Origin: Mermis nigrescens
Taxonomy: Eukaryota; Nematoda; Enoplea; Mermithida; Mermithidae
Assembly (NCBI GenBank): GCA_036768485.1
Contig: JAVLUZ010000333.1
Location: 124,001 to 188,000, forward strand
Length of the DNA stretch: 64,000 bases
Direction: 5' to 3'
The position numbers were made by a program, and so were the translations under genes. Under the pieces are notes generated by a model. The model was not told the DNA's origin and did not search any database. It was given only the letters and a program-made list of their open reading frames with translations. Shown piece by piece: positions 7,245 to 56,519 of the stretch (its first letter is position 1; the number at the start of each line of letters is the position of its first letter).

Positions 7245-8354
7245 TAGTGATGTAAAAGATCATCTGGATCTGATCTTTTTATCCAGATTCAGATCCAGAT
7301 CCAGATAATCTGGATCTGGATCTGTTTATTTTCTGATATGGTTATGTCTGATCTGGATCTGCATCTGCCAGAAATTCAGAACCTGATCCTTATCTGGATC
7401 TGAATCTGTTTAGTCAAGTTATATATGGTTAAACAGATCAGGAAGTTATTTTTCAGCGATGGTATCCTTTCTGTTTTACGATTTCATGTGGGTAGGTTAG
7501 CCTTACATGCACGTGGGGGGGGGGTCTGCTGGAGGTTTTGACCTTTGACCCCCCAGTTCCGTGCTACCCCCCCTTCAGAATGGCCAAAAAGTGCCGCTGA
7601 CCCCCCATAATTTTTTGGTTTTAGAAAAATTTTTAAAGCTCTGCAGAAAAGTAAATTAAGTGATAAAAATGTATTAAAGGTTGTTTTTTCACATAAATGA
7701 TCATCAGAATTGACCTTTGAGAGACTTTTTTGCCTGAAAATGGGAAAATTTTGAATTTTTTTGTCGTGTTTAGGACGTCGGAACAGATTGAGACACCAAT
7801 TAAAAAAATATTACCTTGTTTAAAATTAACCAACATTTTATTTAAATTTGAATTATTTGTTGATTAAAATTGTTGTTGATGTCTGTGAGACAGAAAGGAA
7901 CTTTCAAATAGTACGATAAGTATTCATGAGTGATTATAATTTTAGCAGCAATGTTTAAAAAAATTGCATTCGTAATTTGGATTAATGTCGTTTTTGTAAA
8001 AAGCAGACTACACTGTCTTCTGGTTGACTCAAAAGTCTAAACTTGTGAGCTTTTACTTTCTAGACAATTTTTACTGATATCATTTTTATGTAAAAGCTCT
8101 AAAATGCAAATTTTCCTCGGCTCTGCCCCAGACCCCTCTGGGACTGCTATATTAGTCCCGTCACCCGAGACCCCCCAATCAATCTTGGCTTGGGGGCTTT
8201 ACGACTTCCTTTTTAGCAATACAAATTGCTGCACAAAAAAATATTTTTATCTCGATCTGGATCTGGTTATCTGATCTGGATCTGGATCTGCCAGAAAATT
8301 TGAACCGGATCTTTATCTGGATCTGGGTAGAAATCTGGATCTTTTACATCACTA
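7245..8354. mobile_element. 1.1-kb non-autonomous hAT-like element
   Basis: The left end TAGTGATGTAAAAGATC and right end GATCTTTTACATCACTA are perfect 17-bp inverted repeats. The flanks GTTGAATG and TTTGAATG are an 8-bp duplication with one mismatch. Subterminal regions (7260-7440 and 8250-8340) are long runs of the word GATCTG/CAGATC. The interior holds no coding frame; a GGGGTCTGCTGG-type stretch near 7510 belongs to another old repeat. Confidence 0.85.
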
Positions 8355-9169
8355 TTTGAATGTAATGAAAGGCATCGAACGCTATGTGTATCTCTTATTT
8401 ACAACGTAATAGGTACCTACTTACCTACCTTAGCTTTATAAAACAGGCCACATGCCCCGTCCAGTGATGCAGGCTCAGGGATCTACTCCGCAGAATGGAA
8501 CAACGAACATTTTCTAAGGTAAAAACAGTTTTTTAGCATTTACACTAGTTTCTGAGGTTATTTTGACCCAAAGCTCAATTTAAGACTTCCCTCAGATCGA
8601 TTAAGATAGGCATCCATGGTCCCACTCACCCAACTCCTGATTTGATAAAATGGCTGACAAGAGGGAGTTTGAAATTTAAGTAGCTACAACTTCCAGAAAC
8701 TGCGTATTGAGTGCAAAGTAGCATGCACGAGTGCGATGTATTATATAAGGTACAATTTTATTTTAAGAATTGTCTCATGAAATTTAACTCATATCTGGTG
8801 GAGAACTTTGGCTGACATAAAAATGGCAAAAGTGTTTTTCACTACCCCTCTCCTGGTCCAGATTGTAAACTTTGAAGCGCCAGGGATTAAGTGCGGCCAA
8901 GTTCTACGTGTGACCTACATAACACATTTCTATCGGAGGACTCTACTCCTAAACAGTAAATGGCTCAGAAAAGGCCGAAAACATTACACGTTTGAGCCAG
9001 CAATTAGCTTGCACGGAAAAAAATTTGAAAAGCGCACATTCTAGATTTTATCGGAAAGTGGAAATATACTTAATTTTTCGATGTGAAAATTAAGTTAGGC
9101 TAAGCAGGGCATCCGTATTTCATAGTGAAATCTTCTCAGCAGCGAATAGATTTATCTGATTAAATGCAC
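8355..9169. other. no gene recognised
   Basis: Contains one 78-codon open frame (8808-9044, +) without a recognisable domain or good context. Nothing else is supportable. Confidence 0.35.
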
Positions 9170-15256: not shown

Positions 15257-15640
15257 ATGAAAAATTCTTTCAAAAGAATTCACGCTTTTTTACCGGCAAA
15301 AGTACCAGCGAAGGGAAATCCAAGTTGTTCAACGGAATTAAAATTTGTGATAACGTTGCATTTATACAGAACTGGAAGCCCTGATTTTGCTGTGGCGAAA
15401 CTGTTTAATTTGCATTCGAAATCAACTGTTTCAAGAATTGTTACTGAAACCACGGATCAATTATTCGAGCATATGATGAACAAAGTTATATTTTTTCCGG
15501 TAAATATTAAAGATTTATATGTGATCAAGCAAAAATTTTATAGGAAATGCAAAATACCGAATGTCGTAGGATACATTGATTGTACCCATGTATTGGTTTT
15601 AGCGCCCAGCGATGACGAAATTTCATCATGTAAATTATAA
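15257..15640 (+). pseudogene. Harbinger DDE transposase, N-terminal part
   Basis: A 127-codon frame. It shows the helix-turn-helix-like region usual in Harbinger transposases (around residues 45-65: F-N-L-H-S-K-S-T-V-S-R-I-V), then the block carrying the first catalytic aspartate, V-V-G-Y-I-D-C-T-H-V (residues ~100-111), equivalent to the family's G-x-I-D-G-T-H. The frame stops about 15 residues later, and no second Asp or final Glu block follows on this strand. Full-length family members are roughly 350-400 residues, so this is a 3'-truncated, inactive copy. Real homology may begin slightly upstream. Assignment is by motif only. Confidence 0.75.
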
Positions 15641-18057: not shown

Positions 18058-19080
18058 GAATTTTAGAATACAAAAGACCATAAAATGGGTGTAGTAGTCT
18101 GCAAAGTCTTTGCCCCTCGATCATTCGGTGGACAACAAATCTACAAGTATATACACCACAACTGAATTTTGGTGCTTTTTGGAAATTTAGCCCATCAGAC
18201 TACCTCCACAATTTTTTCGATGGCCATGTTTTGCGAAAGAACTGACAAATCATCACAATTATACATTTAAATTTGTTTTGTTTTTCCGCAATTTTAAGTC
18301 ATAGCAAAAAAGGACAAAAGATGCATTTTTGTATACCACCTCCTACAATCATTCTTTTTAAAAGTTTTCAAACCCATAAAATTACGCCCAGAAAATTCAG
18401 GTATTGCATTGCCTACACATGTCTCATTATAATTGCCTTGAACTGCCAGAGTACTGAAAAATGGTCCTTCTAGTAATTTGTTATCACAAGCATTGGCGCT
18501 TTGTGCATAGCTTCTACCAAATAACATTAGGTGGTTGAAAAATTAGTTTATGCTGAGTAAACTAAACAGTCTCAGAAATGTCGAAAATACTGTTCCATTT
18601 ATTTTTTGCCTTTTCTTGATCCATTGACTTGACAAAACCGTCTTGTGAACTTTGTATCAGATTAAAACGATATTAAAGAATTTTGTTCACATGACTAGCT
18701 TTGCCAAGAGGAGCAAACGGAATGTAAGCTGGACTAATCCTTGTGCGTGGAAATTAATTTTTGGCGATCTAGCAAGAAGCTGCAAAAGTGGCTTCTAGGC
18801 AGCTTACTGTAATGCAATTTAACATAATGAAACTTCATTTGCTTATCAATTGCTAAGCACAATATTGTGATTGCTGCTTCAGCTTAAACCGCTTTTGTAT
18901 TCGGTTCATATTGACTCAAGAATTTTGATCCATGTGCAAGGTTTTGTGAAAGATTATACATGGATGCGTAAAAATTGAAATGATTTTGCGGCATAACCAT
19001 GCACACAAAAGTAAAAGTAAACATCAAAAGAATGTTGATGCAGGTATAAATCCAAAAATAATTGTGAAATATTAGCATGT
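18058..19080. other. no gene recognised; possible 3' end of exon array
   Basis: Mostly unassigned AT-rich DNA. On the minus strand about 19008-18885 is open for ~40 codons and ends at TAA (…E-P-N-T-K-A-V). The sequence around 18970 resembles the intron-3'-end region of the adjacent exon array (TCATTTCAATTTTTACGC), though the AG acceptor is not preserved. It could be a terminal exon, but this is speculative. Confidence 0.3.
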
Positions 19081-19156
19081 ATTAAAAGCTGCGTTTGGCT
19101 GCAGAACCTGAAAACTCCGATGAATAATTTTTACTTTTTCAATTTTGATTTCTTAC

Positions 19157-19252
19157 CCATAGGGACGCACTCCTCTCCCATGCTCTGACTATTAAAGACT
19201 GTTTCTGTAAGATGGACTGACGTCTGTTCCAAATTTGATCTTATTTCACTGC
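19157..19252 (-). CDS. array exon 1 of 7 (lowest), 96 nt
   Basis: Bounded by acceptor GGTTCAG (intron ends at 19253) and donor GTAAGA (starts at 19156). Phase 1 at both ends, so it contributes 32 codons in frame with the other exons and contains no stop. The peptide begins S-E-I-R-S-N-L-E-Q and ends G-E-E-C-V-P-M, polar and without a recognised domain. A related but truncated unit lies at 29792-29855. Confidence 0.6.
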
Positions 19253-19477
19253 CTGAACCATGAAAAAATTGAGAAGATAAAAAAGCATGAGCATATGAAA
19301 GCAATGAATAATATAACCGAATTTAATTAAACATCGACTTACTTGAAACACTTTCTTTAAATTCGAATTAAAATTTCAAAAGCATTCTGAAATTATAGCA
19401 GTTATCAAAAGCTGCGTTTAGTGCAAAACTTGAAACCTCTGCTGAATAATTTCCACTTTTTAATTTTAATTTCTTAC

Positions 19478-19561
19478 CCACTGGCTCATGTTCTTCAACT
19501 AAACTCTGACTGTTCAGAACTTTTGAGGACGACTGCACCATATAAGAGTTTGTTCTACCGC
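19478..19561 (-). CDS. array exon 2 of 7, 84 nt
   Basis: Acceptor GGTTCAG, donor GTAAGA, phase 1 to phase 1, 28 codons, no stop. It ends in L-N-S-Q-S-L-V-E-E-H-E-P-V. The same end (with D for H) recurs in the exon at 29011-29103, showing that the two are related while their first halves differ. Confidence 0.65.
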
Positions 19562-19789
19562 CTGAACCACGAAAAAATTGAAACAATAAAAAAGCATGAG
19601 CATATGACAGCTGTGTATCATATAACCTAATTTAATTGAAAACGAATCACTTTGAAAAATAGCTTACACTAGTTGAAATTTAAATATAAAAAAACATTCT
19701 GAAATTATAGCAGTTATTGAAAGCAGCGTTTGGTGCAAACCTTGAAACCTCTGATGAATAATTTTAACTTTTTAATTTCAATTTCTTAC

Positions 19790-19882
19790 CTAAGGGCTCC
19801 TGTTCATCATCCAAAATCGGATTTCGGGCTACTAGCACAGTATTTCCGGATGTCTCTATGGTAATTCTGTTCACTGTTGTGT
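19790..19882 (-). CDS. array exon 3 of 7, 93 nt
   Basis: Acceptor GGTTCAG, donor GTAAGA, phase 1 to phase 1, 31 codons, no stop. The peptide (T-V-N-R-I-T-I-E-T-S-G-N-T… ending D-D-E-Q-E-P-L) is hardly alignable with its neighbours even though the flanking introns are closely similar. Confidence 0.65.
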
Positions 19883-20110
19883 CTGAACCACGAAAAAATT
19901 GAAATGATAAAAAAGCCTGAGCATATGACAGCTATGTATTGTATAACCTAATTTAATTGAAAACGAAACACTTCGAAAAATGGCTCACTGTAGTTGGAAT
20001 TTAAATATTAAAAAACATCATGAAATTATAGCACTTATAAAAAGCTACATTTGGTGCAAAACTTGAAACCTCCGATGCATAATTTTTACTATTTAATTTC
20101 AATTTCTTAC

Positions 20111-20191
20111 TCGCTGCTTCATTGTCTCCGGCTATACTGTGATTGTCTGCAACCAATGCATCTTGATTGGCAGTCGTCTGAACCACACCAC
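20111..20191 (-). CDS. array exon 4 of 7, 81 nt
   Basis: Acceptor GGTCCAG, donor GTAAGA, phase 1 to phase 1, 27 codons, no stop. It belongs to the 81-nt subtype (G-V-V-Q-T-T-A-N-Q-D-A-L-V-A-D-N…) shared with exons 20421-20501 and 29333-29413. A second GTGGTTCAG word inside the exon, 14 nt downstream, would shift frame if used. Confidence 0.65.
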
Positions 20192-20420
20192 CTGGACCAC
20201 AAAAAAATTGAAATGATAAAAAGTATGAGCATATGAATGCTATATATTCTATAACCTAATTTAACAGAAAATGAGTCACTTCAAAGAGTAGCTTTCTTTA
20301 AGTTCGAATTTAAATTTAAAAAAAACAATATGAAATTATAGCAGTTATAAAAAGCTACGTTTGGTGTAAAACTTGAAACCTCCGATGCATAATTTTTACT
20401 TTTTAATTTTAATTTCTTAC

Positions 20421-20501
20421 TCGCTGCCTCATCGTCTTTTGCTATACTCTGATTGTCTGCAACCAATTCATCTTGATTGGTAGTCGTCTGAACCACACTG
20501 C
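20421..20501 (-). CDS. array exon 5 of 7, 81 nt
   Basis: Acceptor GGTTCAG, donor GTAAGA, phase 1 to phase 1, 27 codons, no stop. Same subtype as exons 4 and 7 (…T-T-N-Q-D-E-L-V-A-D-N-Q-S-I-A-K-D-D-E-A-A). The intron upstream of it (toward higher coordinates) holds both the LINE and the Polinton. Confidence 0.65.
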
Positions 20502-20655
20502 CTGAACCACGAAAAAATTGAAATGATAAAAAAGTATGAGCTTATGAATGCTATGTATTCTATAACCTAATTTAACAGAAAATTAGTCACTTGAAACAGT
20601 AGCTTTCTTTTGTGCAAATTTAAATTTTAAAAAACATTATGAAATTATAGCAGTT

Positions 20656-21510
20656 GTTGTTGTTATTTGCCAGACATGGTACCATAAATCAAATGTTTAA
20701 TGCGGTTGTTGCCTTTATTGGTTTCCTGCATAATTCGATGATATTTACTTGTAAAGGCCGTGACAGGCAGTTAAAGAGGTGTAGTGTATCTTCTGTTGCC
20801 GCCAGGCAGTGAGGGCAAAGATCAGACATTTGTCCAGTGTTATCGAGTTGGCTGCAAGTCGATGCCAATATGTAGCTGTATCCGCTCATTAGTTGTGCAA
20901 GTTTGGCTCTGGAGCAACGTGGAAGATTTGTTTCGTGTGCAACAATGTTTGGTAGGCGACAGAATATGAAAGGGTTTGGTTTGATAAAGCAGTGTCGTTT
21001 GGCGATCACTGCCTTCTTGTGGAGATCGTTTTGACATTGGTGAAGTATTGTAAGCGGAGGTAGATTCCTTAAGTGGCGTTGAACTCTAGTTTCTGAGTAC
21101 ATTTTAAGTGTTGGTTTGAGCCGGAAATTTCTTTGACATCAGTAAGGTGGACCAGGACAGCCAAATAACTGCCAGCATGGATGGTTGTTATGCAGGCATG
21201 CGACGATTTATTGGTCAGCCAACAGTCAGTTGTGATCCAATACAGATAGCATTCTGGTTTTGCTATGCAGGTGGTTGATTGACATGATTTGAAGGCAAAT
21301 TGTGGATAAACGGAGTGCTGTATTTTGACAGCTTTGTGGTTTCTCAAAATTAGATGTTTCAATTGACGGCATCCAAAGTGGTGCAGCATAATTCAAAATT
21401 GAATGACCAATATCCTTGTATGTTAGTAGAATCGTTTCTTTTTGAGCACCACATGTTTGTCCAGTCAACGCTTTCAAGATCTTGTTGCGTTTTTGAACTT
21501 GGTTTGATTA
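20656..21510 (-). mobile_element. 5'-truncated Jockey/CR1-type LINE with 14-bp TSD
   Basis: An 855-bp minus-strand insertion flanked by AAATTATAGCAGTT on both sides (20642-20655 and 21511-21524), with a short AAC-repeat tail at its 3' end (GTTGTTGTT on the plus strand at 20656). This is target-primed reverse transcription with 5' truncation. Coding remnants are the C-terminal part of the reverse transcriptase protein. One frame (21477-21226) has L-N-Y-A-A-P-L-W-M-P and H-L-H-S-K-T. A second (21102-20689) has L-A-Q-L-M-S-G-Y and the zinc-knuckle-like C-P-H-C-L…H-L-F-N-C. Frames are broken relative to each other. It sits within an intron of the exon array. Confidence 0.9.
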
Positions 21511-21598
21511 AAATTATAGCAGTTATTAAAAGCTGTGTTTGGTGCATAACTTGAAACCTCCGATGAATAATTTTCACTATTCTAATTTTAATTTCTTC
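21511..21598 (-). repeat. array fragment between LINE and Polinton
   Basis: Continuation of the exon-array intron (GCAGTTATTAAAAGCTG… to TAATTTCTTC), cut off by the Polinton at 21599. The last five bases, TCTTC, are the Polinton's target duplication. Confidence 0.85.
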
Positions 21599-21741
21599 AG
21601 TAGTATAGAGGGGGGGGGGGGGGTGGGGGTTGCAAGCATATTTTGGGGGTCTGCCACACAAAACATAGGCAAAGCCCGCTCAAGCCAAGTCAGCTCAGGG
21701 GTCCACGGGGGTCCGCCCCGGGGCTACCCTGTTAGAAGGAA
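21599..21741 (+). repeat. Polinton left terminal inverted repeat
   Basis: Starts AGTAGTATAGAGG followed by a G run, then TCTGCCACACAAAACATAGG and CAAGCCAAGTCAGCTC, ending near CTACCCTGTTAGAAGG. It matches the right end read inverted over its whole length with scattered differences; the G run is longer here. Confidence 0.9.
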
Positions 21742-22099
21742 ATTTGGAATATGATTAGTCTTTGTGGGAATAAATGACTGAATTGAGCGAGAAAGAAAAA
21801 AGAGTTGCTCTCTTGAGGATCAAACTGCCGATCCCTTGCACCTCTGCTAAGGAGCGGAACCACTGCGCTTTGTGGGGGCAAATCTCAATTTTTCTCGAAT
21901 GAAGGTCAATCCTGTCTGGGCGTTGTGCTTAAACCCGTAAAGTTATGTTTCAAGTAGAGCATATAATAAGGTTACGGCAAGTTTTTTAAAAATTCGACCA
22001 AGCATAAACATAGTCTCCGGCGGCTTTTTCAGTAATATTAAAATTTATTCTAAGGGTATAAATATCAACAAACTTTATAAATATCGAGCGATTAGTTCG

Positions 22100-22300
22100 C
22101 ACGAAGCCTATAAATATCACTGACGTTTCATCAGGCTTATTTCCGTCTTTGTGACTAGAGAGATAAAGTCTATAAATGTCAGTGACGTTTCATCAAGCTT
22201 ACTTTGGTCTTTGTGACTAGTGAGATAAAGTCTATAAATATCAGTGACGTTTATAAAAATCATCAAGCTTTTCATGGTCTATGTGACTATTACAAAGCAC
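22100..22300 (+). promoter_or_regulatory. three tandem ~63-bp repeats upstream of the polymerase gene
   Basis: The unit CTATAAATATCAGTGACGTT followed by TCATCAAGCTT and GGTCTTTGTGACTA occurs three times (near 22108, 22168 and 22230). Each unit contains a TATA-like TATAAAT word and a TCAGT initiator-like word, too close together to be one core promoter. The position just before the polymerase start suggests a promoter or terminal regulatory region of the element, but this is inference. Confidence 0.45.
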
Positions 22301-22303
22301 AAA

Positions 22304-25300
22304 ATGGAGAAGCAATACATCTGTAACGTATGTAATAAAGCGTTCTCAAGGCCGAACAGGCTCGAGGAACATAATAATTCTGTTCATTTAGGCTCACGTT
22401 TCAGATGTCCACAGTGTAATGTATTGTTTAAACTTCCAAGAAAACTGGTAAATCATTTTGAATTGGTTCATCAAAGTTCATTTGAATGTATTTATTGTAA
22501 TATGACTTTCAATTCCAAAAAAATTTATTTTTCAATGGAACATCTAAATAATTGTCTTTCAATAAAACCTTTATCTGGGACTAACTATACTGGAGCCTAA
22601 GGAACAGCTTAAGAAAGACGATATTATACCCGAAGATGGACTCCTACCTAATTTGGACGATTACCCCGATCAAATGACTGATACTGTACAAACTTTGGCC
22701 GCTGATTCGTACTCACAAGAACATAAAAGATCTTTTAGATCACGCATATAATTATCGATGGGGCGTTGGCAATTGCATGGCAATGTTAACCAATGTTTTT
22801 AATAATGAGCAAGAAGCATTCAGAATAAATGGCGCCTTTGGCTTCACATCGAAAAATCGAGAAACGGTTGCTAGCAAATATTGGTACCCATCGCAAAATA
22901 ATTTTAATCTTCTAGACAAACCCGTACTAATTAAAGATGGAGAGGACATAAGACAATCAGCTGAGCACTTAAACAAAATTGATATTGAGAATAAAATAAG
23001 CCGGCCAGATACTAAATGGGCAATAGAAGCTATAACAAATATTGAATTCTATGTAACACCACAAGAGAATTTCATAGCCGGTTGTACTGACGTCAGTCTT
23101 CCAACATCAATTTCATATCAGAGGCATACTTTACATATGACCCAAGATAGACAGCGTAATAAATGTAAGGACAATCTATGTTTCTTTAGATGTTAAGCCC
23201 AATGTTTAGTTGATGATTACGAAAATAAGGATTTTGCATATAAATCTTTTCTTAAATATTGTAATTTAAAGAACATTCCAACTGATAAAAATACTTTTCA
23301 GGGTAGAGCATATACGGATTTACAAATTTTAGAAGATTTATTCAAGGTAGATATTCAATGTTTTCATATTGATGAAGATAATCAAACAGCGGTTTGTTGG
23401 AAAAAGACAGTTAGGCGATATACAAAAGTTTTGAATGTTGATATTTCGATCACTGAATCTGGAAAGGCGCATTTTAGTTATATTTTAAACCTAGATCACT
23501 ACGCAAAACGTTACAGTTGTTTAATGTGTGGCAGACTTTTCAAAGACGCGGAAAAATTAAGCAAGCATATATCGAAGCATTGTAATCATGGGGAGACTCG
23601 GCATAAATTCCCAGGTGGTGTCTTCCAGTTAAAGAAGACAGTATTTGAAGAGCTCAATGAATTTGACATAGAAATTCCAAATGATGATAAATTTTGTCCT
23701 TATTTCACTGTGTTCGATTTTGAAGCATTTTTAATTAAGACACCCATTGAAAATTCAGGAAAAATTGAATTCGTAGCACAGCACTAACCCGTTTTGTGTG
23801 CAATTCACACAAATGTCCCCGGATTTGAGCCCATATGTTTTGTGAATAATGACCCGGATCAGCTATTAGTTCAGCTAATGCAGTATCTAGAAAAATCCAG
23901 CGGGCGCAAAGCGCTCTTCTTCTCAAAACTTTTGGCTCAGTTTTGGTAGAGCTCGATAAAAAAATTCAGGCCAGTGAGCTATATCTAGCTGAAACGACTA
24001 ACAAAGATGCAACACGCGAAAATGGAAGATTGAATAAACTTCATCGCGCAAATACAAAATTAGGAAAGTATTGTAATCAGTTGATTTGTCTAGGATTTAA
24101 TTCCGGTAAATATGATATCAATTTAATATAACGAAATTTGTTCGCGGCTCTATTTCAACAAATTAGGAAGGACCCAAACAGCAATATGTGGCCCACAGCT
24201 ATTCTTAGGAATGACACTACCCTTTGTATGACAACTAGTCTTCTCAAATTTTTAGACATTAGCACATATGTAGCTCCGGGTTTTAGTTTAGACGCATTTA
24301 CAAAAGCATACAAAGCAAGTTTAACAAAAGCTAAATTTCCTTACAAATATTTAGACTCATTTGATAAATTGTATGAAACTCAGTTACCACCAGCCGAAGC
24401 ATTTTACAGTAAGCTAAGAGAAGAGTGCATAAATTCACAGGATTATGAGCAATGTCAAAAATATTGGGCGGATAACAAAATGGAGACACTTACGGACTAT
24501 CTCGTATTTTATAACATCAGAGATGTTGTCCCATTCTTAGAGGCTTGTATGACTATGGCTCAACTATACTGGGCCAAATTTGATATTGATATTTTCAGAG
24601 AAGCTATGTCATTACCCGGGGTTACAGAACGCTATCTTTTCAAAAGTGTCCCAAACACAAGATTTGCTCTCTTCAGTGAGCAAACAAAAAATCTGTATTA
24701 TTCTCCTAAATCGAGCATGAGAGGTGGACTTTCTATGGTGATGACACGACTAGCGATTAAGGACCAGACTTTCATCAAAAATAATCCATCTAAGCCAGTA
24801 AAATCTATAATTGGACTCGACTTTAATGCTCTTTATTTGTGGGCACAATCTATGGACACTCCAACCGGATATTTTGATCATTGGATAATGGAAAATAGAA
24901 AATTTCAAAAAATTAGTGCATCTAAACCTATTCCAATAGAATGGCTCGAATATGAAAGCAAGAAAATTGGTCATTTTATTCAACATTTAGGAAATGGGAA
25001 GGAAAAAGTGGTGGGACCTAAGGCACTTCCAGTCGATGGATTCTGTAGTGACACAAATACAGTTTATGAGTTCTACGGCTGCTTCTGGCATTGTCATGAA
25101 TGTCTGGCAGGCAGCCATAATAAGAACTGTGATCCAGATGAGGAGTATGAGCGTATTAAAGAGAAAGAAGCCTATATAAAATCACTAGGCTTCAATTTCA
25201 TTACTATTTGGGAATGTAAGTGGCATAATGAGAGAATCGACTACCTTAAAACTCAAGAAACACGAAAATTTTATATGAAAAGATGGGTAGGTCAACAAGA

Positions 25301-26451
25301 AATGATAAAATCTCTATTAGATGGCTCAGTTTTTGGTTTCGCAACAGTAGATATTTCAACGCCGGACCATTTAAAAGAGCAATATTCTGATTTTCCACCC
25401 ATAATTAAGCACACAGAAATAAATCGGAACGATATTGGAGACTTCATGAAACAGTATGCTGAGAAGACTGGTCAGTTTAAAAGGCCTCGTATAAATCTGA
25501 TAAGCAGTTTTTTGGAAAAGAAATTATGTTATCAATTGAAATGATTCGATTTTTAGTCTCCCATGGTCTCATTTTAGAAAAAGTTCACGAAATCGTTCAA
25601 TATGATAGGACTAGACCATTTGAAAATTTCAGGGATATTGTCACAAAACATAGGCAAGAAGGGACATTGACCCAAATCTAGCTATGATCGCTGACACATT
25701 TAAACTTCTCGGGAACACAGGATATTGCAAAACACTAACAAATAAAGAACAACATATTGACATATCTTACATAGGCTATAAAAAAGCGGCGGAATGTAGC
25801 CTAAGTCCTTACATTAAGAAAATTAAATGTATAACAAATAATTGTTATGAAGTACTCATGAGAAAGAAGGAAATTTCATTAGATCTACCTATAGTTGTAG
25901 GATTATCAGTGTTTAATTGGGCCAAAATCCGAATGTTGGAATTTTTCTATGATGTTTTACTAAAATATTTTGATGTTTCCGATTATCAATGTATGCAAAC
26001 AGACACAGACAGCATTTACCTAGCACTATCGGCAGAAAATTTACAAGATATAGTACGACCAGAGCTGAAAGCTGAATTTGAGAAAATATACTCAAGCTGG
26101 TTTGTCACTTCACAAGCTAGCAAACGGACACCAGGTCTTCTGAAGGAAGAATTTCGAGGAACAGCCATGTGTTGTTTAGCCGCCAAAACTTATATAGCTG
26201 TAGATGAAGTTACGAATAAAAGTGAATTGAGCAGTAAAGGCTTAATGAAAAACGTAAATAACCTAAACTTTCAACAATATAGCAGTGTATTACAGCAGCA
26301 AGAAGCCAAAGGTGGCAAAAATATAGGCTTCCGAATGCAACCAGATAATTATATGTGGACGTATATTCAAGAGAAGCAGGGATTACCTTATTTATATGTG
26401 AAACGGAAAGTTTTACAAGATGGAATTTCGACTGTCCCATTAGATATTTAA
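22304..26451 (+). pseudogene. polB: Polinton protein-primed family B DNA polymerase with N-terminal C2H2 fingers, broken
   Basis: Replicates the element's linear DNA in intact relatives. The start is set at an ATG in AAAATGG after the tandem repeats. C2H2 fingers follow at once (C-N-V-C…H…H and C-P-Q-C…H…H), with another at 23517-23580 (C-L-M-C…H…H). Exonuclease blocks: V-F-D-F-E-A-F (23710), G-F-N-S-G-K-Y-D (24090) and Y-N-I-R-D-V-V (24515). Polymerase blocks: motif A G-L-D-F-N-A-L-Y (24815), motif B L-L-G-N-T-G-Y-C-K-T (25705; the family usually has N-S-x-Y-G-K) and motif C T-D-T-D-S (26000). Premature stops at about 23194, 23785 and 24129 and frame changes near 22600, 23790-23940 and 25545-25680 make it non-functional. 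Confidence 0.9.
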
Positions 26452-26639
26452 ACAAAGTTCAACTAAAAAGGATTTCTATCTAAGAAATGCATATTTTTTC
26501 GGTATCATTTAAGTCAAAATCAACTTAAAATTCAAAAACAATAAAATTCCTGCTATAAGACCCTGATGCTTGAGTGGTGTGATAGCTACACATAGGGTTG
26601 GGGAGGCCCCTAGAATCTGGTGCTATTTTGCCTCAGTAG

Positions 26640-27180
26640 AGCTCTCGTTGTAGAGATTTATTGCAAAGTTCTAAAATTTAGCTGTATTGCCGCAAATTTT
26701 TTTTGTAAAATTTTATGAAAAGTTTGCAAAGTTTCGGGGAAATCTTGTAAAGTTTCAAAATGTTTTGTAAAGTTTCGAAATAATTTTGTAAAATTTCGAG
26801 CAACTTTGACATGCTTTAGGATAGAAGTTTTGTAAAGTTTCAAAATTTGGTTGTTAGGCTTCAAAATTTTCTGTAAAATCTTGTGGAAAGTTTGTAAAGT
26901 TTCAGATTAGTCTTGTAAAGTTTCGAAATAGGCTTGTTAAGGTTTCAAAATGTGGCATATTGCCACAAAATTATTTGTAAAATCTTGCGAAAAAATTTGT
27001 GAAGTTTCAAAATATTTTGCAAACTTTCGAAATAATTTTGTTAAATTCTATACGACTTTCACATGCTTTAGGATATAAGTTTTGTAAAGTTTCGAAATTT
27101 TGTGGTTAGGCTGCAAATTTTTTTTGTAAAATCTTATGCAAAGTTAGTAAAGTTTCGAAATTTTCTTGCTCTTTAGGTTA
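26640..27180 (+). repeat. degenerate TTTTGTAAAGTTTCGAAAT tandem repeats
   Basis: The 18-20-bp word TTGTAAAGTTTCGAAAT recurs about a dozen times, with variants. A longer period is visible: ACATGCTTTAGGATAGAAGTT near 26810 and again near 27060. It lies between the polymerase and integrase genes, where a capsid module could be expected, so it may mark the deletion site or a regulatory spacer. No gene. Confidence 0.7.
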
Positions 27181-27189
27181 TAAATAATA

Positions 27190-28262
27190 ATTATTCGGTT
27201 TTAGAAAGCATAGAGATCACGAAGCAGTATTGGACGGAGGTAGGCAGGCCAGCCTCCTTTACAGGTATCAACAAATTGCAGAAGGTTCTTAAAAATAGAG
27301 AAGAAATATCGGCTGATAAAGTTAGAAAATTCTTGAAAAATCAATTTTCTTATCAGCTACATAAACCTGTTTCGAAACGTTTTGCAAGACGCTCTATAAT
27401 TGTTTCTGGGCCATATAATCCTTTGGGATGTTGATCTATTAGATTTAAAGGAATTATAGGCAAATACTATAGAAATCGTTATATCTTAATGGCGGTTGAT
27501 GTATTTTCACGAAAAGCATATGGTGAGGCCATAACTAATAAGAGTGCTGATGCAACTACTGGGTGTTTGAAAAGATATTAAATGAGGCAAAACCGCAATC
27601 CAATCAGGACTGATCACGGCAATGAATTCAAAGGTGCCTTCAATAAATTATTACAAGCTCATTCTATCACGCATATATTGACAAGCAACCCAGAAATAAA
27701 AGCTAATTTTGTTGAACGGTTTCACAGGACATTTCGTGATAAGCTTATGCGGTATATGACTTATTATTCTGATGAAAACTGGATTAAAGTATATAAAAGT
27801 ATTCTCAATAGTTATTATAACACTCCTCATCTAAGTTTAAACAACCTGGCCCCTAATGATGTTAATTCAGAGAACACTGGTAAATTATTAGAATTTATGT
27901 TGAAAAGACAGAAAAAATACAAAAATGAACGAATATTTAATGTTGGAGAAATTGTTAGAATAACTTCTTTGAAAGGAAATTTCGCAAAAGCTAGTAAGCA
28001 TACATTCACAGATGAATTGTTCAAAATCAATAGCGTATCTCAATGTACACCAAAAACATATAAGCTGGAAGATATGTTAGGCGAACTTATAAACTGGTGC
28101 TTTTTATGCAAAAGAACTACAATTGGCCGAGCCAGAAGCTGAAAAGCACAAGAGAGTCAGAAATAGCTATAAATATCAATGAATCACAGTATAAAGTAAG
28201 ATTTAAAAATTGGACAGCAAAATTTGATAGGATTTTATCAAGAAAAGAATTGAGATTTTACG
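27190..28262 (+). pseudogene. int: Polinton retroviral-type integrase, broken
   Basis: Inserts the element DNA in intact relatives. Order: N-terminal part with L-H-K-P-V-S-K-R-F (27355-27400), which precedes the catalytic core in Polinton integrases; D-V-D-L-L-D-L (27427-27447), holding the probable first catalytic Asp; M-A-V-D-V-F-S-R-K (27490); R-T-D-H-G-N-E-F (27607) with the second Asp; N-P-E-I-K-A-N-F-V-E-R-F-H-R (27690) with the catalytic Glu; then N-V-G-E-I-V-R-I and a C-terminal Y-K-V-R-F-K-N-W (28190) resembling a chromodomain-like tail. Frame changes near 27425-27480, 27560-27585 and 28085 break it. It lies directly upstream of the small gene at 28279. Confidence 0.88.
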
Positions 28263-28278
28263 AAGAGCCTAAATAAAA

Positions 28279-28644
28279 ATGGCTCCAAAAAGGCTGAAAC
28301 GAAATTTGGCTTTTCTACATTTATTTAGCACCGCGAGACAGCCACAAAGAGATGCACTGATAAACACGGCAACTAAGGACCAAATATTATGCATATGCGA
28401 TTGTGCATACAATTTTTTGAGCGGCAATTTTCCATTCTCTGACAATGAGGTAGACAAACTTAGGCGATATCAGAATCAAATAAGATGTTTAGCTAAGAAC
28501 AAAAAGGTCGCAACTAAAGAAAGGAGAGACTTTATCATACAGAATGGTGGATTCTTACCTATTTTACTGGCTCCGATTCTTTCTATAGCCGGCAGTTTAC
28601 TAGCAGATGCAATTATGGGTGAAAAGGATGCAGAGAATGTTTAA
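28279..28644 (+). CDS. small basic protein with hydrophobic tail, Polinton-associated (PX-like)
   Basis: A 121-codon intact frame starting at an ATG 16 bp after the integrase end. Residues 1-10 are basic (K-R-L-K-R-N), residues 25-60 hold a Cys-x-Cys-x3-Tyr-N-F-L-S-G-N region, residues 68-85 are Lys/Arg-rich, and residues ~91-115 form a hydrophobic, probably membrane-active helix (G-G-F-L-P-I-L-L-A-P-I-L-S). Small proteins of this shape accompany many animal Polintons/adintoviruses and have been compared to adenovirus core protein pX. That comparison rests on general resemblance, not alignment. It is the only undamaged gene of the element, and the reason is unknown. Confidence 0.75.
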   Translation: MAPKRLKRNLAFLHLFSTARQPQRDALINTATKDQILCICDCAYNFLSGNFPFSDNEVDKLRRYQNQIRCLAKNKKVATKERRDFIIQNGGFLPILLAPILSIAGSLLADAIMGEKDAENV

Positions 28645-28884
28645 ATCTAATAAGTAAGACGAAGAAATCAGGGTCGGGTACCAGGTCACAAAATTTTTTT
28701 TGCTTAAGTTAAGGCCTGCACACGAACCCCAAATCTAGCGATCGAAATTTGCCCAAAAAAATCTGTCTATTGTGATTAAAACCCAGCGCTAAGCGCCAGT
28801 AACATTTTTCTCTATCCAATATTTTTGACTATAGGGTTGGGCCGCCATGGCCCTTTGAGACTTCCCCCTTCCTGCGACTATGTT

Positions 28885-29004
28885 CCCCTTCTAGCGGGGG
28901 TAGCCCCGGGCGGACCCCCGAGCTGACTTGGCTTGAACGGGCTTCGCCTATGTTTTGTGTGTGGCGGACCCCCGAAATACGCTTGCGACCCCCTCTATAC
29001 TACT
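28885..29004 (-). repeat. Polinton right terminal inverted repeat
   Basis: Inverted counterpart of 21599-21741, from CCCCTTCTAGCGGGGGTAGC to CCCTCTATACTACT. It contains GAGCTGACTTGGCTTG and TATGTTTTGTGTGTGGC. It is directly followed by the TCTTC duplication and the exon array. Confidence 0.9.
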
Positions 29005-29010
29005 TCTTCC

Positions 29011-29103
29011 CCACTGGCTCATCTTCTTCAACTAAACTCTGACTGTTTAGAACTACCATATGATTCGCGGACGCCTGAATCACAATTGCATGTATTGTAC
29101 CAC
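29011..29103 (-). CDS. array exon 6 of 7, 93 nt, donor destroyed
   Basis: Acceptor GGTTCAG; 31 codons open, phase 1 to phase 1. It ends L-N-S-Q-S-L-V-E-E-D-E-P-V like exon 19478-19561. The donor reads GGAAGA instead of GTAAGA, so GT is lost. The Polinton's TSD begins one base beyond this position, so the element lies in the first bases of this intron. Confidence 0.6.
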
Positions 29104-29332
29104 CTGAACCACAAAAAAATTGAAATGATAAAAAAGTATGAGCATATGAAAGCTATGTATTCTATAACCTAATTTAACAGGAAATGATTCACTCCAAACA
29201 GTAGCTTTCATTAAGTTCGAATTTAAATTTAAAAAAACGGTGTGAAATTATAGCACTTATAAAAAGCTGCGTTTGGTGTAAAACTTGAAACCTCCGATGC
29301 ATAATTTTTACTTTTTAATTTTAATTTCTTAC

Positions 29333-29413
29333 TCGCTGCCTCATCGTCTTTGGCTATACTCTGATTGTCTGCAACTAATTCATCTTGATTGGCAGTCGTC
29401 TGAACCACACCGC
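29333..29413 (-). CDS. array exon 7 of 7 (highest), 81 nt
   Basis: Acceptor GGTTCAG, donor GTAAGA, phase 1 to phase 1, 27 codons, no stop. Nearly identical to exon 20421-20501 (one or two residue changes), which suggests recent duplication or conversion. The intron to the next exon is 229 nt. Confidence 0.65.
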
Positions 29414-29855
29414 CTGAACCACGAAAAAATTGAAATGATAAAAAAGTATGAGCATATGAATGCTATGTATTCTATAACCTAATTTAAAATGAGTCACTTC
29501 AAACAGTAGCTTTCTTTAAGTTCGAATTTAAATTTAAAAAAACATTATGAAATTATAGCAGTTATTAAAAGCTGCGTTTGGTGCAAAACTAAAAAAGCAT
29601 GAGCATATGAAAGCTATGTATTATATAACCTAATTTAATTTAACACGAGTGACTTCGAACAATGGCTTTCTGTAGTTGGAATTTAAATATTAAAAAACAT
29701 TCTGAAATTATAGCAGTTATTAAAAGCTGCGTTTGGTACAAATCTTGAAATCTCCGATTAATAATTTTACTTTTTCATTCTAATTTCTTACCCAAAAGCT
29801 CTGACGATTTAAGGCTGTTTTTGTAAGTTGGACTGACATTTGATCCAAATTTAAT

Positions 29856-31099: not shown

Positions 31100-32646
31100 A
31101 TTGAAGACTTGACTTGACTTAAACACCATAAGCTTCAATGACGTTGGTAGGGCAACGACCGTTGAGCTGTGGCGGCCAAAGGCAGTGTATCACGGATTAC
31201 AGCACGCCATTGATCGCGGTTCAAGGCTGCTTGTTGGGCATCAATGATTGAGAAGTGGAGCGGCTGAACATCTTGTGCCACTTGTGTCAACCATGTTTTC
31301 TTAGGGGCGTCTCGAGAGATTTTCCACCCCGTGGGCCGCTTGGAGTTAATTAACTGATAGGGTAGTCGGGTGTTGTTCATGCGGCAGACATGTCCAAACC
31401 ACCTGAGCCGCTGTCGCTTTAAGTAGAGTTCGATACTGGTTTGGTTTTTACATACTTGCAGCACAGTTTCATTCTCCCATCGGTCTCGTAGATTTATGTG
31501 CAAAATGCTGTGAAGACATCGAAGTTGAAAACGTTCTAATATGTGCATATCGCTTTTAAGCAGAGTCCACGACTCAGAGCCGTACATCAAAATTGTCCGG
31601 ATGGAAGCATTAAAAATTCTCATTTTTGTTGTGATGGTAACGTCTTTTTGGTTCCACAAACACTTCTTTAGTGAAGTGAATGCTGACATGGCATTCCCAA
31701 TGCGGTTTTTGATGTCGCTAGTCGCTACTATTCGTCCACTATCAATAACCGATCCCAAATATTTAAATGCATCCACCCGTTTGATTGGTTTGCCATCAAG
31801 TTGTAATATGGCCGGTTGTGTGCCCGTGAGAATAAATTTAGTTTTTTCGCTGTTTATTGTCAGGCCGAGTTTGTTGGCATTCACTTGTAACGCATTCAAG
31901 GTATTTTGTGCGGCTTGAGCTGTTTCGGCAAAAAATACAATGTCGTCGGCATATACTAAATCAGTGAGAGACAAATTAGCTCCGACTTGTACACCTGGCA
32001 TGTCGTCGAAAGTTTTTCTGAGAATCCAGTCCATAGTCACGTTGAACAACATAGGCGAAATAATGCATCCCTGTTTAATGCCAGTGGTAATTGAGAATGG
32101 TGAGGACACATTTCCCAAATATTTTGCCCTGCTCATTCCACCGTCGTAGAAGGCCTTGAGAATACTAAGTGTGGCATGCGGGATTGATTCATTTTTGAGG
32201 GCGCACCATAAGGACGAATGGTCTATGCTATCGAATGCGCATGCAAAATCCACAAATACCAAGAATGTGTCCTTTTTACAGCGTAGGCGCGATTCGGTTA
32301 GTTGCCTAAGTGTGAATATTTGGTCGGTGCAATCTCTTCCAGGCCTGAAACCAGCCTGCTCTTCCCTGCAGTTAGTTTCTCTAACACTGAGTAGTCTGGA
32401 TCGGATTATAGAGGTCAGAAGTTTTCCAGATGTTGCTAACAGGCTTATTCCTCTATAGTTTTTGCAGGTAGCTGGGTCTCCCTTTTTGTGAATTGGTACG
32501 ATAATTGAGTCCTTAAAGTCTTGAGGCACTGTGCCTTTGTTCCAGATGGTCGAGTATACGCCTTTTAGTTGTTTGACTATTGCCTCTCCTCCAGCTTTTT
32601 AAAGCTTCAGCAGGGATGTTGTCCACACCTGGTGTGGACAACAAGC
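31100..32646 (-). mobile_element. 5'-truncated RTE-like LINE
   Basis: Minus-strand non-LTR retrotransposon fragment. The 3' end after the stop has a short AAGTC repeat tail (plus strand GACTTGACTTGACTTAAAC near 31108). The 5' end is truncated before the RT domain near 32640, where the sequence passes into a GGCGTAGCCAGG-type hAT repeat. The apurinic-endonuclease part is missing. Confidence 0.85.
31135..32595 (-). pseudogene. LINE reverse transcriptase, RT domain and C-terminus open, 5' truncated
   Basis: Long minus-strand frame that continues upstream of the first possible start to about 32595. A 1-nt shift there joins it to P-G-V-D-N-I-P-A-E-A-L-K in another frame. RT blocks: P-I-H-K-K-G-D…C-K-N-Y-R-G-I-S-L-L, Q-A-G-F-R-P-G-R, F-V-D-F-A-C-A-F-D-S-I-D, G-I-K-Q-G-C-I-I-S-P and the catalytic Y-A-D-D-I. 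The C-terminus has the R-W-F-G-H-V-C-R-M block typical of RTE-like elements. Without an endonuclease domain it cannot move on its own, but the RT core has no internal stop, so decay is recent. Confidence 0.88.
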
Positions 32647-40384: not shown

Positions 40385-40653
40385 GTTTTGAAAAAATGAG
40401 CTTGTTAAGCGAGAGTTGTAAACCAAGAGAAAAACTTAAAGTTTAAACATACCATTAAATTATGAAGAGAATTATAAAAGATTTTAAACTAGAAGAAAAT
40501 GAAAAAGGTGGGATTTCAGTAAATTAAAACAAATTTAGAGGATATGATGAAACATTATTGTTGAGAATAGGACGATCACGTGCTATGTATAACGACTCCT
40601 TGATTAAAAGATCAAAAGAGTTGGATGCTCGACTAATAACCTTGAAGCAATCT
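40385..40653 (-). repeat. PLE terminal direct repeat, 3' copy
   Basis: Nearly identical to 43363-43630; the differences seen are one A more in an A run near 40391 and T for C near 40458. It overlaps the last ~43 codons and the 3' UTR of the PLE gene, as is usual when the repeat extends into the coding end. Confidence 0.92.
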
Positions 40654-42992
40654 GATGTAATTGAATGATTGCTATTTGAGACATGTTTGTGAATAGCAGA
40701 TAAGCTATCACCCTGAATTGGCTTTCCTGTAGCAAATGAGATGCCAGTATGTTCTGCAATTCTACTCCCAAAATGTCGGCGAGTTTCGCCAATGTAACTA
40801 GCCATACAGCTAGAACACGTATACTTATATACTAAATTTGAGAGTAGCTTAGCAGGTACAGCATCCTTGTTCTTGAAAAACCGGCTTATACACATGACAG
40901 GTTTGTAAACAAACCTTACTCTAATCTGAGGGTAAAATGCAGATATAAGCTTTAGAATTCTGCTGCGTACATTGTAGCCATGCACACCAGTATAAGGCAA
41001 AACAAGAGAATAGCATAATTTATCACAACCGACTTTTATTTCATCACTCTTATTATACACCTTTGTCATAAAGTCTGATATGACCTTATCAATCAAGCCA
41101 AGGGGATACTCATTTTGCAGTAGAGTCTGCTTCAGCTTGTCAATATCAGAGACAAAAGTCTGATATGAGTTACAAATCATGTAAATGCGACTCACAAGTG
41201 TCCTTATTAAACCAACTTTATAGGCAAAAGGAATGAAGCTAGACAATTTGGTATAAAGGCCAGAAAATGTAGGTTTCTGATATGATGATGTCACAATATC
41301 ATCGGACTTCCTTTCAACAAGAACATCGAGGAAATTTAATTTCTTGTCACATTCAGTTTCAAATGTGAACTTCATATTAGGATGTTGCTGATTCATGTAA
41401 TCACAGAACTTAGTAGGCTGATTTCTGTCAGAAAACACTACAAATGTGTCATCAACATAACGTACATAAAACTTGGGTCTGATCTTTATATTGCAGTCTC
41501 TGAGCCACTTTGTTTCATGATAGCTCAAGAAAATGTTGGCAAGAACTGGGCCAAGCGGATTACCCATAGCAACACCATCTATCTGTTGATAGATTTTACC
41601 ATTACACGTAAAGTAACACTCTTTAACTGCAAGTTCTAGAAGCAGTTTGAATTGATGACAATTCATGTTATTTACTAACATGACATTTTGATCATCAAAT
41701 AGTTTCCTAATACATATATCAATAGTCTCATTGAGTGGAATATTAGTGAACAAGCTTTGAACATCAAGACTAGCCATAAAATGATGGCTTTTGAATGTAA
41801 AAGCCTTAAGTCTTGTCAGGAAACTACCAGTGTCACATAAAGTGTATTCATTTGTACTTATGTCTTGCAGGATCGGCACAAAATACTTAGCCAACTTATA
41901 AGTTGGAGTGTTGATGGCTGACAAGATCGGTCTTAGAGGTACATCTCTCTTATGGGTCTTAGGTAAGCCATATAGTCTGCCATAACTGCATCCTACAGGA
42001 TTTATACTTTTATACACATCAGCAGATAGTCCATTTTGCTTATGAACCTTCAGTATACGGGCTGATATGCGTTTCTGAACTGAGCGTATAAACTGACAAG
42101 GATTACAGTCAATGACTTTGAACTTTGAGATATCATTCAAGACATCATTCAACTTCCTGATGTAGTCATCTTTGTTCAAAATTACAACTTGGTTACCCTT
42201 ATCTGCTTTTAGGACAATGATATTCTTGTCTTTTGACAGATTACTGAGGATTTCATAGTCACGCTTTGATAGATTATCACAATGCTTCTTATCATAATTA
42301 AAGTATGAGCTAAGAGCAATGTCACGCAATTGATTCTTGATCATTTGCATTTTTACATTATCACACTTAAAGGCAGTTTGTTTATTGAGGAAACCCATCA
42401 GTTTCTCAAAAGGCAGCAAATAATCACCATATTCGATCTTCCTAGGTGTAATAGAGTACTTCATACCATAAGACAAGACAAGCTTCTCATGAGCTGTCAA
42501 AACTCGGTTACTTAAATTAACCACAACCTTGTCAGGATCGATACTATTAACACTTTTATGCATAAGCAAGTTTTTTACCTTCTTGCTATGCAACTGTCTA
42601 ACATGGTTGAGAGATTTAGACACATTGCGTCTAATGTATGTTAATGATACCTGAGAATCCAGCCAGGATAATCTTGAATCAAACAAGGTTATCTGTGCCT
42701 TCAAATCTCTTAGGACTCTTTCTACCTCTTTGATTTTATCTTTCAATTCCTCATTTAGCAAAAGCCTCTGGCATGTTATGTAACACTTAGAACGCTTAAG
42801 CATTCTATTAGAAACCTTGAAAGCCAGAAATTTAGGAAGTAAATCATTATCAATGCATTCCTTAAGAAATGCAACATCCAACTGAAGCTTATCATAGCGA
42901 AGTTGAAGCTTCTCAACTTTTCTCAATAGCAACACAACTCCATGATCATACTTATTCTTCAAATATGTGAATATATTTAGCTTTAAACGAAT
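40524..42992 (-). CDS. PLE reverse transcriptase / GIY-YIG endonuclease, main exon
   Basis: Copies the element RNA at a nicked target. Over 800 codons without a stop. Order: a coiled, Leu/Lys-rich N-terminus (~1-150); a D-K-G-N-Q-V-V-I block (~255); the RT domain with R-P-I-L-S-A-I-N-T-P-T-Y (~345), S-L-D-V-Q-S-L-F-T-N-I-P (~400), G-V-A-M-G-N-P-L-G-P (~465) and catalytic Y-V-D-D-T-F (~505); and a C-terminal GIY-YIG nuclease with a C-S-S-C pair then A-S-Y-I-G-E-T-R-R-H-F-G-S-R-I (~735), H-V-S-N-S-N-H (~780) and the catalytic-Glu-like K-E-S-L-Y (~795). The frame is open upstream of the first in-frame TTG (42962) to an acceptor at 42993, in phase with the upstream exon. All key residues look present. 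Confidence 0.93.
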   Translation of the reverse strand: MRLKLNIFTYLKNKYDHGVVLLLRKVEKLQLRYDKLQLDVAFLKECIDNDLLPKFLAFKVSNRMLKRSKCYITCQRLLLNEELKDKIKEVERVLRDLKAQITLFDSRLSWLDSQVSLTYIRRNVSKSLNHVRQLHSKKVKNLLMHKSVNSIDPDKVVVNLSNRVLTAHEKLVLSYGMKYSITPRKIEYGDYLLPFEKLMGFLNKQTAFKCDNVKMQMIKNQLRDIALSSYFNYDKKHCDNLSKRDYEILSNLSKDKNIIVLKADKGNQVVILNKDDYIRKLNDVLNDISKFKVIDCNPCQFIRSVQKRISARILKVHKQNGLSADVYKSINPVGCSYGRLYGLPKTHKRDVPLRPILSAINTPTYKLAKYFVPILQDISTNEYTLCDTGSFLTRLKAFTFKSHHFMASLDVQSLFTNIPLNETIDICIRKLFDDQNVMLVNNMNCHQFKLLLELAVKECYFTCNGKIYQQIDGVAMGNPLGPVLANIFLSYHETKWLRDCNIKIRPKFYVRYVDDTFVVFSDRNQPTKFCDYMNQQHPNMKFTFETECDKKLNFLDVLVERKSDDIVTSSYQKPTFSGLYTKLSSFIPFAYKVGLIRTLVSRIYMICNSYQTFVSDIDKLKQTLLQNEYPLGLIDKVISDFMTKVYNKSDEIKVGCDKLCYSLVLPYTGVHGYNVRSRILKLISAFYPQIRVRFVYKPVMCISRFFKNKDAVPAKLLSNLVYKYTCSSCMASYIGETRRHFGSRIAEHTGISFATGKPIQGDSLSAIHKHVSNSNHSITSDCFKVISRASNSFDLLIKESLYIARDRPILNNNVSSYPLNLF

Positions 42993-43044
42993 CTTGAAAA
43001 GAAAAGCAAGAATAAAGAAAAACTTTATTAAGTCTAAAACTCAC
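42993..43044 (-). other. 52-nt candidate intron inside the PLE gene
   Basis: The minus strand reads CTG|GTGAGTTTTAG… to a pyrimidine-rich …CTTTTCTTTTCAAG|ATT. Donor GTGAGT and acceptor CAAG are strong. Both flanking frames are in phase 0, so removal joins the upstream frame to the RT frame without a shift. Without removal, the upstream frame ends at a TAA just inside the main exon. PLEs are known to keep introns after retroposition. Splicing here is inferred, not observed. Confidence 0.75.
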
Positions 43045-56489: not shown

Positions 56490-56519
56490 TCATGACCGAA
56501 GCTGTGTGAAACAGACTAT
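56490..56519. repeat. right end of a TATAGTCTGTTTCA element
   Basis: AAAATTCATGACCGAAGC, then TGTGTGAAACAGACTATA: the inverted form of the element start at 48219. The left end may lie near 56130, but it was not found with confidence. Confidence 0.5.

Follow-up and report, generated by a model that had tools for sequence, protein, structure and literature searches.

A tandem array of candidate symmetric phase-1 mini-exons of an orphan gene in the mermithid nematode Mermis nigrescens

What kind of sequence repeats a short, variable, open segment between nearly uniform spacers that resemble introns? The question is raised by the minus strand of a 64,000-nt stretch of the Mermis nigrescens genome (contig JAVLUZ010000333.1, here C259, positions 124001-188000; hereafter the window), where the original prediction, made from the letters alone, described a rapidly evolving gene segment of tandemly duplicated mini-exons at 19157-29413. 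The genome searched comprised 523,963,438 bp in 860 contigs; the published assembly is given as 867 scaffolds totalling 524.2 Mb (PMC10989877). The array proved real, and an exon origin is most likely. It is probably a symmetric phase-1 mini-exon array of an orphan gene, or of a few gene copies, of this mermithid nematode, a reading in which we infer both splicing and the protein from sequence.

All seven predicted units were present on the minus strand, with segments of 96, 84, 93, 81, 81, 93 and 81 nt in the order of window coordinates. The 81-nt exons W1 (29333-29413), W3 (20421-20501) and W4 (20111-20191) belong to class a, W2 (29011-29103, 93 nt) and W6 (19478-19561, 84 nt) to class b, W5 (19790-19882, 93 nt) to class c and W7 (19157-19252, 96 nt) to class d. 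The predicted splice motifs were borne out at all seven: acceptors end in GGTTCAG, except for GGTCCAG in W4, and donors read GTAAGA, except for GGAAGA in W2. W1 has AG and GT borders and an open phase-1 frame. The five uninterrupted introns measured 225-229 nt, as claimed: W1-W2 (29104-29332, 229 nt), W3-W4 (20192-20420, 229 nt), W4-W5 (19883-20110, 228 nt), W5-W6 (19562-19789, 228 nt) and W6-W7 (19253-19477, 225 nt). Upstream of W1 lies W0, a decayed eighth unit on the same strand (29792-29845, upper limit approximate) with a GTAAGA donor and an unrecognisable acceptor. The 3' flank of the array (18066-19156, minus strand) is 82% identical to its counterpart on C267 and showed no exon.

A search for the cassettes at other loci had been proposed, and they were found on two further contigs, C844 and C267. 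A six-frame search, in which all 58 candidates were scored, returned 60 matches at E values ≤10, every one of them on C259, C844 or C267. Each of two further DNA searches gave 21 matches, again confined to these contigs, counts that are lower bounds because a known large array was missed; other large arrays invisible to the DNA search are conceivable, and the six-frame protein search found none. C267 carries four exons at 880.7-881.7 kb, one of them frameshifted, and at 888 kb two complete exons with a truncated third. At 914.7 kb begins a further stretch, in which a unit with a stop precedes 44 units of ~327 bp each (914807-929190), 21 of them fully intact. This large array is not a single read-through open reading frame (ORF), as several intron stops lie in the exon frame. 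The count over all loci is 63 units, of which the window contributes 8, C844 3 and C267 52. Copies with stops or with lengths that are not multiples of three had been named as evidence against a gene, and the outcome was mixed: AG, GT, a multiple-of-three length and an open frame were all present in 34 of the 63 units, including 13 of the 19 outside the large array, and the others are broken.

The phase-1 frame was open in 7/7 window exons and either alternative sense frame in 0/7, so the claim that one frame alone is stop-free holds among the sense frames; the reverse-strand frames were open in 4/7, 2/7 and 1/7. None of 20,000 mononucleotide shuffles kept all seven exons open, and an 84-nt control frame placed within the five whole window introns was open in all five at 0 of 423 placements, although neither count is a strict probability because the units are related. 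Of 18 sampled cassettes, 16 were open in phase 1; this sample took in two units of the large array and every unit elsewhere apart from W0, B1 (which bears a stop) and M3 (which is truncated). These 16 measured 72, 81, 84, 93 or 96 nt, all multiples of three, and 14 introns of 225-233 nt varied irrespective of 3. This supports the proposal of phase-1 mini-exons whose length changes are neutral to the frame. In a simulation of neutral drift that began from six open class representatives, all six stayed open in 131, 28, 7 and 0 per 1000 runs at 0.1, 0.2, 0.3 and 0.5 substitutions/site, respectively. Neutral drift thus rarely spares all frames, indicating that the frame was probably selected while the classes diverged. 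Coding ancestry of the cassettes is likely.

Exons and introns differed in apparent age. Introns averaged 0.857 identity and exons 0.574 in the 78 pairwise comparisons of the 13 units that remained after C2 was dropped. At the acceptor border, identity fell from 0.84 to 0.39 (eight chosen distinct cassettes), and at the donor border it climbed from 0.48 to 0.86 (seven of those eight); this sharp switch at AG and GT supports the gene-like splice borders of the original prediction. Among listed pairs for which both introns were available, five had the most diverged exons (W5/M2, A3/B2, A3/B5, A1/A2 and M1/M2); in these, synonymous divergence (dS) was 0.48-1.48 and intron distance was 0.03-0.11, indicating that the introns are younger than the exon split. 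In the extreme pair, M1/M2, introns were 96.9% identical and exons 38%. The exon and intron distance matrices were weakly correlated (Mantel r 0.38, n = 13 units, reached by 148 of 10,000 permutations). Exons were the more variable part even within the large C267 array, which is recent: 9 of 96 exon sites (40 of 44 exons) versus 6 of 231 intron sites (36 of 43 introns) varied, with a minor count of at least 2 (P 0.016). Among the 17 listed pairs, dS exceeded nonsynonymous divergence (dN) in 15, with both high between classes, and dN exceeded dS in 2. Since the synonymous sites of diverged exons have diverged too, homogenised introns account for most of the contrast, and plain rapid evolution is disfavoured. 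Young introns among old exons would fit gene conversion or unequal crossing-over that spared the exons.

In the mechanism that we propose, exon-plus-intron units would multiply through unequal crossing-over, and because intact exons are in phase 1 at both ends, the frame could survive the gain, loss or skipping of a unit. The introns would be homogenised, probably through short gene-conversion tracts, and most exon classes would predate this homogenisation. A bolder version describes a germline locus for cassette diversification, encoding one secreted orphan protein of hypervariable phase-1 cassettes, which would vary in number (3 to >40) and type from one copy or haplotype to another; intron conversion would sustain recombination, and selection for diversity would separate the exon classes. 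We regard this version as unlikely.

Several observations weigh against an array of functional exons. Changes from the class-a consensus were 23 nonsynonymous and 5 synonymous, with an expected nonsynonymous fraction of 0.76 (P 0.85); without C3 they were 12 and 4 (P 0.57). Recent class-a changes are therefore as expected without constraint. Class-a indels numbered 0 in exons and 13 in introns, one of them of 3 nt (P 0.019), so that frameshift avoidance in this class is moderate. Class a also lacked the age contrast (dS 0.09-0.13, introns 0.06-0.17), indicating that it is a young class, the youngest. Of all 63 units, 29 are damaged in some way, and in the large array AT replaces the AG acceptor in 20 of 44 units, which are intermixed with intact ones. 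The initial ~90 nt of many introns are open in the exon frame as well, and the drift simulation was biased toward a coding interpretation by its open starting representatives. Searches for a constant exon, a start or a stop brought up nothing convincing, with no recognisable constant or terminal exon in the shared flanks, and none of the 389 and 7998 candidates scored from a large protein database proved to be a relative. As for the original prediction as a whole, its phase-1 mini-exons, frame neutrality, splice borders and absence of a known domain stood, and its description of the gene as rapidly evolving did not, since synonymous sites diverged likewise and recent changes look neutral.

Some of these points are what a relic would leave, that is, exons of a gene now dead at all loci, what remains being a tandem repeat that has been amplified locally and drifts neutrally. 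The neutral ratio of recent class-a changes and the damaged units at every locus agree with it, as do a W2 donor that was dead before a Polinton-like element inserted there and an inversion in C259, relative to the array, of the ~9-27 kb pieces seen in C844, which separates the window array from the shared upstream sequence. Against it, frame and splice sites are still intact in those 13 of 19 units outside the large array, and class-a exons have 0 frameshifts versus 12 in their introns. We find a relic possible but doubtful; if it is one, it documents the passage from repeated exon to satellite-like array, with the acceptor lost in 20/44 units. A satellite-like repeat that never encoded protein, with splice-like borders and open frames arising by chance, is quite improbable. 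The 44 units of ~327 bp on C267 do resemble a satellite, and the high values of both dS and dN between classes temper the excess of dS in 15/17 pairs; the intron frame control, the shuffles, the drift simulation and the switch of conservation exactly at AG and GT argue the other way.

The age contrast could also be produced by mobile, introner-like introns, if a 229-nt element had inserted repeatedly at the edges of the cassettes in an older repeat gene and so placed young introns among old exons. Intron divergence far below exon dS in the diverged pairs is in keeping with this. A whole-genome intron search was nevertheless confined to the same three contigs (at least 21 matches, the large array being missed), and the arrays at C267:880.6-881.8 kb and on C844 retain the intron's last ~47 nt at their 5' edge and its first ~114 nt at their 3' edge, as duplication of whole units predicts. 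We regard mobile introns as very improbable; the account that we favour is a frame-neutral cassette gene with homogenised introns.

Other parts of such a gene were sought around the arrays. A scan for constant coding exons by third-position excess gave 33 stretches, not each of which was pursued, and in none of them did we see a likely exon of the gene; the strongest of those in a shared array flank (C844 against C267:929-931 kb) lies on the opposite strand. An 82-aa ORF downstream (18294-18542, minus strand) is broken in the C267 copy, has no Pfam match and was treated as chance. The signal-peptide exon expected upstream gave two weak candidates, neither convincing. One, with its ATG at C267:880201, ~480 nt before the first cassette, has a poor donor, and its frame is kept in C844 and lost in the second C267 copy. 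The other (window position 56493; 1 on the minus strand versus 0 in three controls) coincides in part with a dispersed repeat. ORFs at C267:894.6-894.9 and 895.9-896.7 kb had no Pfam match. The cassettes themselves matched no Pfam family above the cut-off, in line with the claim of no known domain, and a search of PDB chains at E ≤1 likewise came up empty. The Rfam search of the window and segments L009-L014 returned nothing at gathering thresholds, and one folded intron showed no RNA structure beyond that of shuffles (z -0.28).

The window copy bears further marks of decay. Its W2-W3 intron is enlarged by two insertions, which, like W0, had escaped the original prediction. At the W2 donor lies a Polinton-like element of 7,405 bp (21599-29003, plus strand) with 65-nt terminal inverted repeats, 86% complementary, and the target-site duplication (TSD) GAAGAA at 21593-21598 and 29004-29009. 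Its DNA polymerase B fragment (DNA_pol_B_2, E 4.2e-6) is barely above the Pfam cut-off, and a test for an integrase gave an rve_3 match below it (E 0.004). The G at position +2 of the W2 donor is present in both TSD copies, indicating that the donor was lost before the insertion. The second insertion is a retroelement fragment of 855 bp (20656-21510, minus strand) with the 14-nt TSD AACTGCTATAATTT at 21511-21524 and 20642-20655, which we take from its tail and TSD to be of the non-long-terminal-repeat type; its ORF had no Pfam match. Unless the assembly is in error, the inversion between C844 and C259 may have separated the window array from its upstream parts. The window copy is probably decaying or severed from its 5' end, and if any copy still works, it more likely lies on C267, which has exons A1-A3 and the 44-unit array.

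Other features were recorded in and around the window. The Polinton-like element contains a degenerate ~21-bp tandem repeat at 26723-27041. On the minus strand, a retroelement with a 487-aa open frame (31135-32598) has a reverse transcriptase match (E 8e-41) and a DUF6451 match below the cut-off, and an 838-aa open frame (40524-43040) with a reverse transcriptase domain resembles a Penelope-like element. A plus-strand ORF at 15257-15640 with HTH_Tnp_4 below the cut-off is a possible DDE transposon fragment. To the right of the window on C259, segments L023 (8024-8602) and L024 (608-1144) hold two open stretches of a GT10 fucosyltransferase gene with N- and C-terminal Pfam domains over the cut-off. 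L024 also has a minus-strand ORF (8080-8412) with a TATA-binding-protein domain over the cut-off. Near 36.16 Mb of the very long contig C61 (L028), a mitochondrial-like block with a COX1-like ORF is either a nuclear copy or an assembly join; we take the adjacent ORFs to be ND1-, ND2- and ND4-like. The best named matches of the COX1-like ORF were mermithids, Thaumamermis cosgrovei (68%) and Romanomermis (67%), among the best 120 of 8000 scored.

Tandem diverged exons are also found in Dscam-type arrays, where they are spliced in a mutually exclusive manner; the one Mermis intron that was folded had no RNA structure beyond that of shuffles. Schistosome micro-exons are much smaller than the Mermis cassettes; the two may share a design of small symmetric exons, those in Mermis being in phase 1 and 72-96 nt long. 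As far as the consulted part of one study describes them, the coding region of schistosome micro-exon genes consists mostly of small symmetrical exons, their products have a signal peptide, and they seem restricted to platyhelminths (PMC4350168); the Mermis array, in contrast, belongs to a nematode and no sequence relative was found. The KQY/KHI cassette effectors of the pea aphid are described, in the part available, as orphan proteins of large genes with many miniature exons (33 of 37 exons in KQY1a are ≤15 bp) and conserved signal-peptide regions (PMC7495047), whereas the Mermis exons of 72-96 nt stand in tandem with similar introns. Bicycle genes of aphids, which the original prediction had invoked as a parallel in design, encode proteins with CYC motifs in most cases, and two solved ones have saposin-like folds, according to the accessible part of the source (PMC13041983). 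Unlike these, the seven window cassettes contain one cysteine between them, split codons uncounted.

The closest comparison in terms of exon and intron divergence is with the SSSGP genes of the Hessian fly. The part of that report at hand describes diversified coding sequence with conserved introns, for which concerted homogenisation was proposed, and SSSGP-2 coding regions of ~950 nt with 35 introns; the contrast there is among whole genes, with a conserved signal-peptide region and untranslated regions and with strong positive selection (PMC2955719). As in SSSGP, Mermis introns are more conserved than exons, though not within class a. Unlike in SSSGP, the Mermis contrast is between exons inside arrays, no convincing signal peptide accompanies it, and positive selection was not indicated, dN being below dS in most listed pairs and recent changes neutral. 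An effector role for the Mermis product would be an analogy, drawn entirely from the Hessian fly, aphid and schistosome parallels and from the parasitic lifestyle. Genes built from numerous small in-frame exons keep appearing where parasite and host meet, with examples from flukes, aphids and gall midges, and an independent case in an insect-parasitic nematode, with exon and intron ages that can be read separately, would make the homogenisation mechanism directly testable.

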